Origin: Chloroflexota bacterium
GTDB taxonomy: Bacteria; Chloroflexota; Anaerolineae; B4-G1
Direction of reading: 5' to 3'
NCBI GenBank assembly: GCA_024232355.1
Contig: JAAEPW010000681.1
Span: 1-21,954, forward strand
DNA: 21,954 bases
Shown: positions 15,451 through 19,898 of the stretch, piece by piece
How the letters are laid out: each line of letters opens with the position of its first letter
Numbering within the stretch: the stretch's first letter is position 1
Made by a program: the position numbers and the translations under genes
Notes under the pieces: model-generated
Told to the model about the DNA's origin: nothing
Seen by the model: the letters and a program-made list of their open reading frames with translations, nothing else
The model's database searches: none

Positions 15451-16425
15451 GTGAACGAAACAAGAGAGCGAATCGAGATCGGCGTTGAGAAAAGCGGCGA
15501 GGAGTTTGTGAAGCTCTCCCGTGACCTAAAGAGGGCCGCACAAAACTTGAGTCGCCGAAATGCCAGATATTTCATCGACCAATACTACTTGATCCAAGAC
15601 AAGCGGATTCGTGCTGCCAGTCAAGTACGCGAATGCAAGGCGGCCGGCGAACCGTGCGAGTTGGTGGATTGGATGTACGACGCCAATCGGCGACTGGAAG
15701 CGGCGGCACAAGTTGCACTAAGGGAGTACGTCAAGCAATACAAGGTCGGAAATTGGTTACTGGCCCAATACGGCATCGGCCCGGTAATCGCAGCAGCGGC
15801 ACTGGCCCACCTGGAGATCGAAGGCCGCCCAACTGTCGGGGCGTTTTGGCGGTTTGCCGGGCTCGACCCCACAAGCGTATGGAAGAAGAAAACAAAGCGA
15901 CCCTGGAACGCCCAACTCAAATCGATCATGGCGTTCAAAATGGGCGAATCGTTCGTGAAGTTCCACGGCCGGGAAAAATGCTACTACGGCCACTTGTGGA
16001 AGAAGCATAAAGATAAACTGTGGCTGCAAAACATGCAAGGTGCGTTTTCCAAAGCGGCCACGGCCGATGTGACCAGCGAAAAATATGACAAAAAAACGCA
16101 GGCTATCAAGTGGGTGCGCGGCGACTATTCGATTGAGGCCGTGCAAGCGTGGCTGGAGGTTGGCAAGAGTGAGAAGCCACCGGAGGTAAACGGGTCCGGT
16201 GTGCCCATGTTGCCGCCAGCACAAATACACGCCCGGGCCAGGCGGTGGACGGTCAAGCTATTTATGTCCCATTTGCATGAAGTGATGCACTGGGACTGGT
16301 ACGGCGAAGCACCACCGCATCCGTATATTTTCGAGCATCCCGGCGGAGACAAACACGTCCATTTATTGGCCCCGCCGTTGTGGCCGGGCGAGTATAAAGG
16401 GGCGTCGTTGCAGGAGATGAAATAG
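15451..16425 (+). CDS. IS110-type C-terminal (Transposase_20-like) domain protein without DEDD nuclease
   Basis: This is a 324-aa protein from a GTG with GGAGAAGG just upstream. The N-terminal ~100 residues are helical and probably coiled. A helix-hairpin-helix follows (WLLAQYGIGPVIAAAALAHL, about 102-121). Next come VGAFWRFAGLDPT (129-141) and PWNAQLKSIMAFKMGESFV (151-169). That order matches the C-terminal Transposase_20 domain of IS110/IS116/IS902 transposases (GIGP ... hxxFAGLxP ... LKxxL). The RuvC-like DEDD domain that does the chemistry in IS110 is absent, so a true transposase is unlikely. The protein probably binds DNA or RNA. Its last codons (GAAATAGCCA) already form part of the repeat array that follows. 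Confidence 0.6.
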   Translation: MNETRERIEIGVEKSGEEFVKLSRDLKRAAQNLSRRNARYFIDQYYLIQDKRIRAASQVRECKAAGEPCELVDWMYDANRRLEAAAQVALREYVKQYKVGNWLLAQYGIGPVIAAAALAHLEIEGRPTVGAFWRFAGLDPTSVWKKKTKRPWNAQLKSIMAFKMGESFVKFHGREKCYYGHLWKKHKDKLWLQNMQGAFSKAATADVTSEKYDKKTQAIKWVRGDYSIEAVQAWLEVGKSEKPPEVNGSGVPMLPPAQIHARARRWTVKLFMSHLHEVMHWDWYGEAPPHPYIFEHPGGDKHVHLLAPPLWPGEYKGASLQEMK

Positions 16426-17114
16426 CCAACACGGTGGAGAGTCCAGAACCGTTGAGCGAGCCAAGCTTGACGAGAGTACAAAACCGGTGAGCGAACCATG
16501 CCGAGCGAGAATCCATCAAGCTTGAGTGAGCCATCATATCGGAGAGTTCAAACAGGTGAGAGCGAACCAATGTCGCAGAGAGTCCAACCAGCTTGAGTAA
16601 GTCAATAATCGCGAGAGTTCAAAAAAGAAGAGCGAGCCACGTCGAGAAAGAATCCATTTCGGGTGAGCGAACCACGAGTGGAGAGAATCCAACTCAAAGG
16701 AGTGAGCCAATGAACACGATAATACAGCGATGACGAACGAGCCAAAAAACCAGAGAATCTAAAAGTCAAGAGCGAGCCATAGTCATCGAGAGTCCAGGGG
16801 CGACGAGTGAGCCATCGTAAATGAGAGTACAAATCACGGGAGTGAGCCACGTCCCAGGAGAGTTCAGAATATCGGAGCGAGCCAAATACGAAGAGAATCC
16901 AACCTGGTTGAGCGAGCCATTGTTCCGGAGAATCCATACTCGAAGAGCGAGTCACGACACAAGAGAGTCCAGAATATCGGAACGAGCTAAGAATGCTGAG
17001 AGTCCATGATCGAGGAGCGAACCATAAATAGAGAGAATCCAAATTAGAAGAGTGAGCCATGCACATTGAGAAACCAAACAAGTCGAGCGACCCTAAAAAC
17101 CAAAGAGTAACCAC
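16419..17114 (+). repeat. Alternating two-core repeat array, 35-nt period, about 19.5 units
   Basis: Core A (consensus GAGAGTCCA, 9 nt; variants GAGAATCCA, GAGAGTTCA, GAGAGTACA) and core B (GAGCGAGCCA, 10 nt; variants GAGTGAGCCA, GAGCGAACCA) alternate, each followed by an 8-nt variable spacer. Core A starts at 16437, 16472, 16507, 16542, then 16578 and every 35 nt to 17103. The only irregularity is one extra base, in the spacer at 16551-16559. Core B starts at 16454, 16489, 16524, 16560, then every 35 nt. A degenerate core B overlaps the stop codon of the previous gene, and the last degenerate core A (AAGAGTAAC) leads into the next ATG. Spacers differ nearly everywhere; GAATATCG recurs twice. 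No convincing gene lies here, and 35 is not a codon multiple. Confidence 0.9.
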
Positions 17115-17402: not shown

Positions 17403-17605
17403 CACAAGACACCCAAGGCAGCCAAGACACCCAAACAATTCCAATACTACAATTCGGCCCTCCACGATACTACGTTCCTATTTGTATCCGCTGGCCGTGG
17501 GGGTTTGTCGGGGGACCGAGTAGCTATCGTGAAGTAGAGGAAACAGAGAAAAACCGGGACACGATCATTATTGATAGCAAGGATGTGGTAAGACATGCGA
17601 AATAA
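17399..17605 (+). CDS. Small protein of unknown function
   Basis: This is a 68-aa frame beginning in an ATGA overlap and ending 11 nt inside the helicase gene. The N-terminus is polar (TQDTQGSQDTQT). It is followed by a Pro/Trp-rich stretch (FGPPRYYVPICIRWPWGFVGG) and a charged end (EVEETEKNRDTIIIDSKDVVRHAK). There is no clear ribosome site beyond coupling with the upstream gene. The family is not recognised. Its position between overlapping genes favours a real gene. Confidence 0.5.
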   Translation: MTQDTQGSQDTQTIPILQFGPPRYYVPICIRWPWGFVGGPSSYREVEETEKNRDTIIIDSKDVVRHAK

Positions 17606-19898
17606 CGGCAAGATTAACGGCACGATGACATACGATGCTTTCCTTGATGGGAAGATGCAACTCGACGGGCAGTCGGGATTCGATCCGGTGTGGATGCCGG
17701 AGTGGCTGTACGACTTCCAGCAGATGTTGACTACGTGGGCCATACAGAAAGGGAAGGCTGCAATCTTCGCGGACTGCGGCTGCGTAGCTGGCGAGACTAT
17801 ATTGCAGACACCAGATGGTGACATACGTATTGACGAAGCGGCAAGGCGAACGAAACCCATCGCTGTCTGGGCACTTGATTCGATGGGCAGGGCAACCCCA
17901 ACGACAGCATCAGCACCTTTCGCAAAAGGCGTTGCCGATCTCTGGGAGTTTCGATTGGCGTCTGGACGGTCTATCAGGGTAATGATGGATCATGTATTTC
18001 TTACTTCTTCGGGGTGGTCTTTTGCTTGCGACGTTTGTGTAGGTTCTTTGCTTGCCGTTTTCCGTTCAGCCTCATCTTCTTCATCCCTTCAGGCGACCAG
18101 TTCGGAACCTTCCCGGTTAGCTCATGCCGCAGGTGATCGGAATTGCGATTATACAGCCCCAGATTATCCGGGACGTTATTCTGCTTATTCTTATCCTTGT
18201 GATGGACAACTTCCTTCGGGTCAAGATAACGACCAAGCATGTTCTCCATTACGAGCCGATGCTCCCGCACATAGCCGCCGTTTGTCGAGTGTGGATGGTC
18301 GGGTTGGTGTATCAGGACATAACCATCCTTATCAATCATGCGTCCACCGTTCCAAGATGGATTGGCTTCGCCTTTCGGGAAGTTCCAATGTGGCTGTCTT
18401 GGAATGTTCAGTCTCTTCATTAGACTCCAGACGGCCTTATAATCCCTGCCGATTGCCTTCGCAATCTCAGTCGCCCGGACATCTTGCTTTGCAAGATCAC
18501 GAATCTGTTGAATGGTCTCTTCATCAAAAGTCAATGGTCGGCCTGTTCTCATCTGAACGTCCTTTCGTGTCTGTGGATTACGATACCGTTACCTCAATCC
18601 ATTATATCAGAACTGACACGTATTACGACATGAATGTCCCGGTTTTTGGGAATTATTTGGCTAATGGTGTATGGAACCACAATACCGGCAAAACGCCTAT
18701 GCAGTTGGTGTGGGCAGAGAATGTGACACGCAAGACTAACAAGCCGGTGTTGGTTATGACGCCGCTGGCCGTGTCGGCACAAACTCAACGAGAAGCCGAG
18801 AAGTTCGAGATAGAAGTCAACCGGTCCCGCGATGGTAAGCATAGCGGCGGTATCGTAATCACAAACTACGAGCGGCTTCATTACTTTGATCCGTCTGAGT
18901 TTGCTGGCGTGGTATGCGATGAGTCCAGCGCGATCAAGGCGTTTGACGGCAAGCGACGTAAGCAGGTTACCCGCTTTCTTTCCAAAATGCCCTATCGGTT
19001 GTTATGCACTGCCACCGCTGCTCCGAATGATTACATCGAATTGGGCACGTCGTCGGAAGCGTTGGGGTATCTTACGCAATCAGAAATGCTGGCAATGTTT
19101 TTCCGTAGCAGCGACAAGCAGCGGCACTCACTATTTAGGGAGGGCGATTTCTGGAACCGCGATAAGTGGTTTTTTCGGGCACATAGTCAAACACCGTTTT
19201 GGCGATGGGTGTGTTCCTGGGCCAGAGCATTACAGAAGCCAGAAGACCTGGGCTGCGATGGTGCGGCGTTTATTCTTCCAGAGCTAGAGATTCAGCAGCA
19301 TATTATCGAATCAACATGGTGCCCGCCTGGCGAGTTGTTCCCGAGGTTGGCCAAGACGTTAAGAGAACAGCGGGACGAACGGAAACGCACAATGCAAGAG
19401 CGGTGCGAAAAGGTAGCAGAGCTAGTGAAGCATGGTCGGTCTGCTGTGGTATGGTGTCAATACAATGCGGAAGGTGACATGCTGGAAAAGCTCATACCGG
19501 ACGCCGTACAAGTGGCAGGCAAGGATACTGACGAAGACAAGGAAGCCCGGCTAAATGCTTTCACGCTCGGCAATGAACGTGTGCTGGTCACGAAACCTAA
19601 AGTCGGGGCATGGGGCTTGAACTGGCAACACTGCGGGCATCAGGTTATGTTCCCAAGCCACTCGTTCGAGCAATACTACCAAGCCATCCGGCGGTCGTGG
19701 AGGTTCGGGCGAAAGAACCCGGTGCATGTGGACATTGTAACCACCAGCGGCGAGAGCGGAGTCACGGCGAATCTGCAAAAGAAACAGGATAAGGCGACCG
19801 CTATGTTCGCGTCACTCGTTGCCGAAATGAATAACGAGTATCTGGTAAAGACCGAAAACCAACACACTCAATCCCTAGAGGTACCCCCGTGGCTGTAA
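17595..19898 (+). CDS. SNF2-type helicase interrupted by an intein in Walker A
   Basis: The 767-aa precursor splices to a predicted 466-aa helicase, a normal size for phage SNF2-like helicases. The N-extein (residues 1-62) ends KAAIFADCG. The intein is residues 63-363. The C-extein resumes TGKTPMQLVWAE, rebuilding the ATP-binding loop DCGTGKT. Later motifs are VVCDESSAI (II, D442-E443), LCTATAAPN (III), VLVTKPKVGAWGLNW (V) and QAIRRSWRFGRKNP (VI, about 696-709), typical of superfamily 2. The ATPase should be inactive until splicing. GGTAAG and AAGGA lie before the ATG, which overlaps the previous gene. It likely acts in DNA replication or recombination, and it overlaps the methyltransferase by 10 nt. 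Confidence 0.9.
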   Translation: MRNNGKINGTMTYDAFLDGKMQLDGQSGFDPVWMPEWLYDFQQMLTTWAIQKGKAAIFADCGCVAGETILQTPDGDIRIDEAARRTKPIAVWALDSMGRATPTTASAPFAKGVADLWEFRLASGRSIRVMMDHVFLTSSGWSFACDVCVGSLLAVFRSASSSSSLQATSSEPSRLAHAAGDRNCDYTAPDYPGRYSAYSYPCDGQLPSGQDNDQACSPLRADAPAHSRRLSSVDGRVGVSGHNHPYQSCVHRSKMDWLRLSGSSNVAVLECSVSSLDSRRPYNPCRLPSQSQSPGHLALQDHESVEWSLHQKSMVGLFSSERPFVSVDYDTVTSIHYIRTDTYYDMNVPVFGNYLANGVWNHNTGKTPMQLVWAENVTRKTNKPVLVMTPLAVSAQTQREAEKFEIEVNRSRDGKHSGGIVITNYERLHYFDPSEFAGVVCDESSAIKAFDGKRRKQVTRFLSKMPYRLLCTATAAPNDYIELGTSSEALGYLTQSEMLAMFFRSSDKQRHSLFREGDFWNRDKWFFRAHSQTPFWRWVCSWARALQKPEDLGCDGAAFILPELEIQQHIIESTWCPPGELFPRLAKTLREQRDERKRTMQERCEKVAELVKHGRSAVVWCQYNAEGDMLEKLIPDAVQVAGKDTDEDKEARLNAFTLGNERVLVTKPKVGAWGLNWQHCGHQVMFPSHSFEQYYQAIRRSWRFGRKNPVHVDIVTTSGESGVTANLQKKQDKATAMFASLVAEMNNEYLVKTENQHTQSLEVPPWL
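18001..18552 (-). CDS. HNH homing endonuclease encoded antisense inside the intein
   Basis: This is a complete 183-aa gene on the strand opposite the intein. The N-terminal helix-turn-helix (about residues 9-50) reads ETIQQIRDLAKQDVRATEI and AKAIGRDYKAVWSLMKRLNI. The HNH core follows, YVREHRLVMENMLGRYL (H98) and EVVHHKDKNKQNNVPDNLGL (H117, H118, N126, N130), then NSDHLRHEL (H140, H143), as in phage HNH_3-type homing nucleases. The basic tail KRRKQKTTPKK is typical. AAAGGA lies 7 nt before the ATG, and a TGATATAAT promoter lies upstream. Its last ~20 codons are the antisense of the intein segment around block B. It should cleave intein-less helicase alleles and so spread the intein (inference). 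Confidence 0.9.
   Translation of the reverse strand: MRTGRPLTFDEETIQQIRDLAKQDVRATEIAKAIGRDYKAVWSLMKRLNIPRQPHWNFPKGEANPSWNGGRMIDKDGYVLIHQPDHPHSTNGGYVREHRLVMENMLGRYLDPKEVVHHKDKNKQNNVPDNLGLYNRNSDHLRHELTGKVPNWSPEGMKKMRLNGKRQAKNLHKRRKQKTTPKK
18601..18609 (-). promoter_or_regulatory. Extended -10 promoter for the antisense HNH gene
   Basis: Read on the minus strand, TGATATAAT gives a perfect TATAAT with the TG extension, which can function with a poor -35 box (none is clear here). Transcription would start near 18593, leaving about a 41-nt leader to the ATG at 18552 with its AAAGGA site. The promoter lies within codons of the intein's C-terminal splicing region. Confidence 0.6.

Follow-up and report, generated by a model that had tools for sequence, protein, structure and literature searches.

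An intein with an HNH nuclease gene on its opposite strand: a probably maintained two-strand layout in viral terminases and helicases

When a nuclease gene lies antisense inside an intein, is the overlap an accident, a step towards a split intein or an arrangement that is kept? The question is raised by a stretch of 21,954 nucleotides from a Chloroflexota bacterium (contig JAAEPW010000681.1 of assembly GCA_024232355.1; hereafter the window), in which an intein splits a phage-like helicase gene and the opposite strand of the intein's central region carries a gene for a nuclease with a helix-turn-helix (HTH) part and an HNH domain. The same layout was present, with both readings intact, in more than 100 other viral and bacterial loci. 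Together, the data point to a maintained intein architecture with a likely homing nuclease made from the opposite strand, and not to a passing intermediate on the way to a split intein; judged from sequence, this reading is given a probability of about 0.83. The layout is likely an overlooked and common route by which such inserts spread. The features of the locus are listed below, with model confidence given as the predicted local distance difference test score (pLDDT).

17595–19898, plus strand: precursor open reading frame (ORF) of 767 residues, an SNF2/superfamily 2 helicase split by the intein (phrog_62 and phrog_16 DNA helicase, Pfam Helicase_C, Foldseek matches to SNF2-type motors)
17595–17780, plus strand: N-extein, with last residues FADCG as the first half of a split Walker A motif (uninterrupted in L001, L002 and P0001, helicase homologues without the insert that read straight through the insertion point)
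17781–18683, plus strand: intein of 301 codons, CVAGETIL ... GVWNHN (splice residues; PF14890 and TIGR01445 scores)
17781–17819, plus strand: splicing block A including Cys1 (Cys1 in 72/72 inteins)
17964–18017, plus strand: splicing block B, GRSIRVMMDHVFLTSSGW (His in 72/72; in the window, Met at the Thr position)
18001–18552, minus strand: HTH–HNH endonuclease gene, 183 residues (HNH_3; model with mean pLDDT 92.8; top solved fold I-HmuI, E=0.05)
18018–18570, plus strand: sense linker of about 180 codons, running through the complement of the HNH gene and predicted to be disordered (pLDDT; linker divergence twice that of the HNH in close pairs)
18560–18565, minus strand: AAAGGA ribosome-binding site, 7 nt 5′ of the HNH ATG (sequence; duplex energy −5.7 kcal/mol)
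18618–18683, plus strand: splicing blocks F and G, TYYDMNVPVFGNYLANGVWNHN (His-Asn in 70/72)
18684–19895, plus strand: C-extein, with first residues TGKTPMQLVW (the remaining Walker A) and Thr at +1 (junction reading)

The coordinates, strands and lengths in the first-pass annotation (a 301-codon intein, a 767-residue precursor and a 183-residue antisense HNH protein) all agreed with the sequence. Its central observation, a separately encoded HNH gene antisense inside a contiguous intein, was also borne out, the host gene being a single open frame (17595–19898) and not two ORFs. The intein comprised precursor residues 63–363, with the junction FADCG / CVAGETIL...GVWNHN / TGKTPM falling within the Walker A motif, and Cys1 (C63), the block B His (H133), the terminal His-Asn (H362–N363) and a +1 Thr (T364) were present. 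A profile of the window intein and four relatives (A2) matched solved inteins, the best being the DnaB intein 1mi8 (E=2e-17). No sense-strand endonuclease was detected in the intein centre, as had been claimed: Pfam and PHROG scans of the linker gave no nuclease match, and in the precursor model, where the splicing blocks folded moderately well, residues 158–325 (the antisense-covered linker) stayed under a pLDDT of 50, at about 25 for the most part, and formed just two short helices. The last 17 bases of block B are shared with the 3′ end of the antisense gene. The window insert is read as a P-loop intein that is predicted to splice. A separate explanation at the RNA level was rejected: the window had neither a tRNA nor an Rfam match at gathering scores.

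The 183-residue protein matched HNH_3 (E=7.1e-10), and this domain is preceded by a helical, HTH-like N-terminal part. I-HmuI (1u3e) was the top solved structural match of its model (probability 0.99, 24 % identity over 99 columns); no structural match fell below E=0.001, an isolated HTH domain (GcrA) was also among the matches, and a sequence search of the PDB returned nothing at E=0.01. The window HNH also weakly matched the NCBIfam model NF052663 (RtcB_rel_intein2), a sense-strand part of an RtcB intein family (E=0.0074), hinting that related HNH domains may also occur in the ordinary (sense) orientation. When the codons of the HNH region (178 codons) were permuted synonymously, the sense frame stayed open in only 0.06 % of trials, with 4.4 stops expected; the open sense frame of the window is therefore not due to chance.

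HNH homologues were fetched without regard to inteins. The first set held 156 loci, of which 83 had an antisense HNH within one open frame together with both intein blocks, four had an open frame with the N block only, two had a block but a disrupted sense side, 66 had no blocks and one had no HNH hit. The nested share was 4/17, 77/80 (the main viral scan, with 73 both-block and four N-block-only loci) and 6/59 in the three scans, so the layout marks the HNH subfamily nearest to the window gene, while most remoter relatives are free-standing. The second viral scan used HNH queries of the terminase type and gave 78 new locus identifiers, comprising 34 repeats of earlier loci, 32 nested and open loci (both blocks in 21, a single detected block in 11), 12 loci without blocks and no disrupted locus. 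The main viral scan covered the best 80 of at least 588 HNH loci and the second one the best 80 of at least 340, a similarity-ranked and non-random sample that included several mutual copies. Dereplication, performed for each set separately, reduced 88 nested loci to 77 and 32 to 28; the free-standing loci were reduced from 66 to 60 (51 of which entered the HNH tree) and from 12 to 11. All nested loci shared one register of the HNH gene relative to the sense frame. The first-pass annotation had suggested looking for the same antisense insert in other inteins of this helicase site; the layout does recur (83 + 4 of 156, and 32 more). It had also considered that the sense frame might usually be broken in homologues; this was not the case, since the first set had 87 open loci and two disrupted ones (L041 and L106), and the second 32 open loci and none disrupted. 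One locus outside the nested class, L021 (4002–4553), is a close relative of the window HNH with an open sense-register frame but no detectable intein blocks, and is perhaps a relic of a former nested state.

Among the 72 inteins analysed for splice residues and distances (of the 77, L030 and the four N-block-only loci were left out), Cys1 and the block B His were each present in 72, His-Asn in 70 and a +1 Ser, Thr or Cys in 71. Junctions, read by eye for the 72 as listed, fell nearly always in P-loop motifs, for example GGNR/SGKT, GNRxGK/T and GPAG/TGK. PF14890 was matched at E=1e-3 by 38 of the 49 nested precursors scanned (out of the 77), and 22 of these 49 matched the terminase large subunit family phrog_2, with others matching helicases, a Sak4-like protein and an SbcC-like protein. 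A protein-only test of inteins in the window-type helicase, other helicases or terminases found the linker compatible with an antisense HNH, in a single register, in the window and in 20 of 22 relatives (21 of 23 in all), with scores of 43–158 against at most 19 in shuffles; P0108 and P0250 fell short, P0050 was counted as positive though resembling a deletion remnant, and none of five controls (proteins with other inserts or with LAGLIDADG-type inteins) was positive. P0050 is a shortened intein of 195 residues whose linker still scores as a partial antisense HNH (42.6 vs 14.3 in shuffles), and it is likely heading toward a mini-intein. Searches that began from the intein were less productive than the HNH-based scans: the A2 profile gave no confirmed loci in viral_contigs or genome_contigs, intein-only tblastn against named phages returned six records, each aligned to the first 80 residues only, and precursor-type queries found no record covering 80 % of the query.

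Nine named phages carried the layout, all in terminase genes: the Pectobacterium/Dickeya phages Ymer, Abuela, Taid, Koroua, Sabo, Amona, Pappous and Setonix (eight records) and Pseudoalteromonas phage PHS3. A profile detected the C block in five of these nine, and in PHS3 it was read from the translation; Taid, Setonix and Pappous match the whole Ymer ORF at 95.2 % identity, which implies the block in them too. Six other phage loci were examined, of which four had an HNH without intein blocks and two were arranged differently. In Brochothrix phage BL3 (L162:1936–2604) the annotated large terminase ends in an intein N block and the next ORF has a weak C-block match, and in Lactobacillus phage CL2 (L163:1670–2590) the annotated large terminase likewise ends in an N block and the next ORF is a sense HNH; these two are possible split or decayed inteins. 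The terminases of PHS3 and of its close relative, phage AL, are 98.3 % identical outside the intein, and PHS3 has a clean 900-bp in-frame insert at GGAG/SGKS, holding both the intein and the antisense HNH, where AL has an empty site.

Is the sense frame in these loci kept open by selection? No sense stop occurred within the nested HNH genes in 12,626 codons (77 loci) or in 4,352 codons (28 loci), and the free-standing HNH genes had 255 same-register stops in 5,592 codons (60 loci) and 41 in 999 (11 loci). The nested class is defined by its open frame, and the zero count carries weight only in view of how few disrupted loci there were (L041 and L106). For the same reason, codon contexts and permutation give sharper tests than the stop counts, and the stronger evidence comes from codon contexts and substitutions. 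By synonymous permutation, about 0.7 of the 77 nested genes would be expected to be open, and five of the 60 free-standing genes were open in the nested register. A codon ending in TT, TC or CT (for Leu, Val, Ile, Ser, Pro, Thr or Ala) before a codon starting with A is a forbidden context. Such contexts were absent from the nested genes (0/1115 in the first set and 0/403 in the second; combined 0/1518) and frequent in the free-standing relatives (225/643 and 36/107; combined 261/750). Before codons not starting with A, the same endings were common in nested genes (1841/3603 in the first set and 631/1227 in the second) and in free-standing ones (531/1288, first set). Phe followed by Ile, Met, Thr, Asn or Lys was likewise missing from the nested genes (0/206 and 0/65) and present in the free-standing genes (27/89 and 4/17).

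Substitutions indicated which of the two readings is constrained as a protein. In the HNH region of 19 close pairs, 495, 374 and 1055 substitutions fell at nuclease codon positions 1, 2 and 3, where nuclease position 3 corresponds to sense position 2; the C block and C-extein of the same pairs had the usual third-position excess in the sense reading (556, 364 and 1556). Amino acid divergence was 0.21 for the nuclease vs 0.41 for the sense linker. No locus is shared between the 19 pairs, although near-copies in a few of them (L062/L063, the Pectobacterium phages and L090/L098) mean that they are not fully independent. From the position-3 excess and the lower divergence it follows that the nuclease protein is under purifying selection and the sense linker is a spacer that is only kept open. 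H98, H118, N126, N130 and H140 of the HNH, conserved His and Asn positions that we take to be catalytic, were invariant in 77/77 nested loci. Nested HNH starts also had stronger ribosome sites than control ATGs (mean −5.3 vs −2.0 kcal/mol, P=4e-14), and in free-standing HNH genes site strength was marginally above that of their own control ATGs (P=0.054).

Across the 72 loci, intein and HNH distances were correlated (r=0.475), as were HNH and extein distances (r=0.591), with 0 of 2000 permutations as high. The nested label was clustered on the HNH tree, with 13 changes vs 41 in shuffles, and the closest relative of the window (L020) lies in the same kind of helicase with an insertion site two codons away. 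In free-standing HNH genes another register was open by chance in 16/60, against 5/60 for the nested register; because that alternative is the more permissive, the single register of the nested loci is probably due more to common descent than to permissiveness. The likely origin of the family is a single antisense insertion or a small number of them.

The mechanism that we propose has one loop coded on both strands, the sense strand giving the intein linker and the antisense strand a separate HTH–HNH nuclease, likely a homing endonuclease. As the conserved splice residues suggest, the Hint halves on either side of the disordered linker would associate, remove the intein and leave a complete Walker A motif. 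The nuclease would be translated from a presumed antisense transcript, beginning at the ribosome site observed in front of its gene, and during co-infection it may cut an intein-less allele within its P-loop codons. As the break is repaired, intein and nuclease would be copied in as a single in-frame unit, a step supported by the PHS3/AL pair and by the correlated distances of intein, nuclease and host gene. The two readings are maintained in ways observed in the family, the nuclease by purifying selection and the sense frame by avoidance of stop-making codon contexts, and the family recurs in viral terminases and helicases.

Several observations weigh against a maintained, spliced and homing element. 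The first-pass annotation had called the splicing blocks intact, which holds for Cys1, the block B His, His-Asn and the +1 Thr but not for the block B Thr position, occupied by Met in the window (T 30, A 21, S 15, P 2, M 1 and F 1, as listed, among the 72 inteins including the window). Both family models scored the window intein under their cut-offs (PF14890, E=1.9e-06, 28.2 bits vs 35.8; TIGR01445, 21.1 bits vs 24.5). Expression signals of the nuclease's own, also claimed in the first-pass annotation, were found in part: the ribosome site is there, but a scan of 17500–19000 found no HNH promoter, only one promoter-like site, located behind the gene, vs 1.9 expected from shuffles. The PHS3 and AL flanks are nearly identical beside the insert, yet 4.7 % of 700-bp windows were as similar, so that co-conversion there is suggestive only. 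The HNH tree, built by a quick method and with many weak forks, needs 13 changes of the nested label, leaving room for multiple origins or losses. Of the disrupted loci, L041 (11–773) has a stop after the N block and four sense stops in the HNH region, and L106 is a degraded, frame-disrupted N half near a contig start, on the same Polaromonas CG9_12 contig as the intact L105. L041 may be a natural split derivative of the family; its contig ends before any C half.

Mobile HNH genes could have landed repeatedly and independently in tolerant intein loops, the nested HNH then being a parasite of the intein that does no homing for it. The existence of free-standing relatives (66/156 loci without intein blocks), the 13 label changes and the close relative L021 without detectable blocks all fit such invasions, but the single register of the nested loci despite a more permissive alternative, the correlated intein, HNH and extein distances and the PHS3/AL difference, which is the whole intein including the HNH, do not, and we consider repeated invasion unlikely. 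The first-pass annotation suggested a transient intermediate, in which a contiguous intein one stop codon from splitting gives way to a split intein and a free-standing nuclease. L041, in which the antisense HNH lies behind an N half that ends in a stop, has the form expected, and 'fractured genes' of this kind are said to be known. However, only one such locus was found, at a contig end, and the strongly selected open frame of the 77 + 28 dereplicated loci, with no forbidden context in any, fits a maintained state; since the layout is widespread and maintained, the intermediate is unsupported and now very improbable. The earlier observation was thus right and understated, and its interpretation partly supported.

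That the sense reading is accidental, with the HNH alone mattering and the host gene read from other starts or being a pseudogene, could appeal to PHS3, whose terminase is annotated only from a start downstream of the intein. Conservation of the N-extein with its half Walker A motif and of both splicing blocks argues otherwise, and the absent forbidden contexts are not explained by chance, so this account is scarcely credible. Finally, the selected role of the nuclease might be the exclusion of competing phages, with homing secondary. According to the available part of PMC7468147, some phage HNH homing nucleases do exclude co-infecting phages; this role likewise needs a site that is lost through the intein, as in homing, and the present data do not separate the two, but we hold it decidedly unlikely as the main selected role.

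A two-strand intein that is maintained has practical consequences. It misleads annotation: in the PHS3 record (L160/L174) the terminase large subunit is called from the start downstream of the intein, so that it appears truncated, with the N-extein and intein omitted and the nuclease given as a separate gene, and in seven annotated Pectobacterium records the antisense nuclease was missed. The layout suggests how a homing nuclease can be expressed apart from the protein that it parasitises, and it is a natural example of one DNA whose two strands are both under selection, with a checkable codon rule. The cultured PHS3/AL pair makes homing directly testable. Elsewhere in the window, an array of about 35–40 alternating short units, apparently non-coding, occupies positions 16437–17110 and follows a transposase-like gene (phrog_4285, 15451–16425). 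The units are GAGARTNCA with about 8 variable bases, then GAGYGARCCA with about 8 variable bases, and a stringent version of this pattern had no match in viral_contigs.

How does the layout compare with known systems? Full-length inteins have an in-frame homing endonuclease, mostly of the LAGLIDADG type, and an HNH case has been reported. They are alike in having Hint splicing blocks, a nuclease coded between blocks B and F and insertion at active-site motifs, and a related HNH is possibly coded in sense in an RtcB intein family (the weak NF052663 match); here, in contrast, the nuclease is a separate antisense protein and the sense frame is spacer only. Dassa et al. are said to have described, in 2009, split inteins with a free-standing endonuclease ('fractured genes'). 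In these, too, the nuclease is separately encoded between the intein halves, but the present intein is contiguous in one open frame and is overlapped antisense by the nuclease gene. I-HmuI is intron-encoded, and HNH homing endonucleases of this phage type provide the top structural match of the HNH model, although the match is remote at 24 % identity.

Antisense homing endonuclease genes occur in nuclear group I introns, according to the available part of Lian et al. (2022; PMC9548176), so that there, as here, the nuclease gene runs opposite to the strand of a self-splicing element. Those elements are RNA introns in ribosomal DNA with no protein frame to keep open, whereas the element considered here is an intein in a protein, with an antisense gene that is constrained in its codons. 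An antisense nuclease inside an intein was not found in the accessible text of the open-licence literature searched, which leaves out most subscription papers and preprints, so novelty is not proven. A review distinguishes three configurations of inteins, full-length, mini and split (PMC7765530), nuclease domains residing in inteins are described as all inserted at one conserved site (PMC6801210), and the available portions of both sources deal with nucleases that belong to the intein's own chain. With the two-strand layout, a further architecture joins these. It is quite probable that it constitutes a fourth configuration beside the full-length, mini and split forms, common in phage P-loop genes (terminases and helicases), in which one ancient antisense insertion uncoupled production of the nuclease from that of the host protein and locked both codings together.

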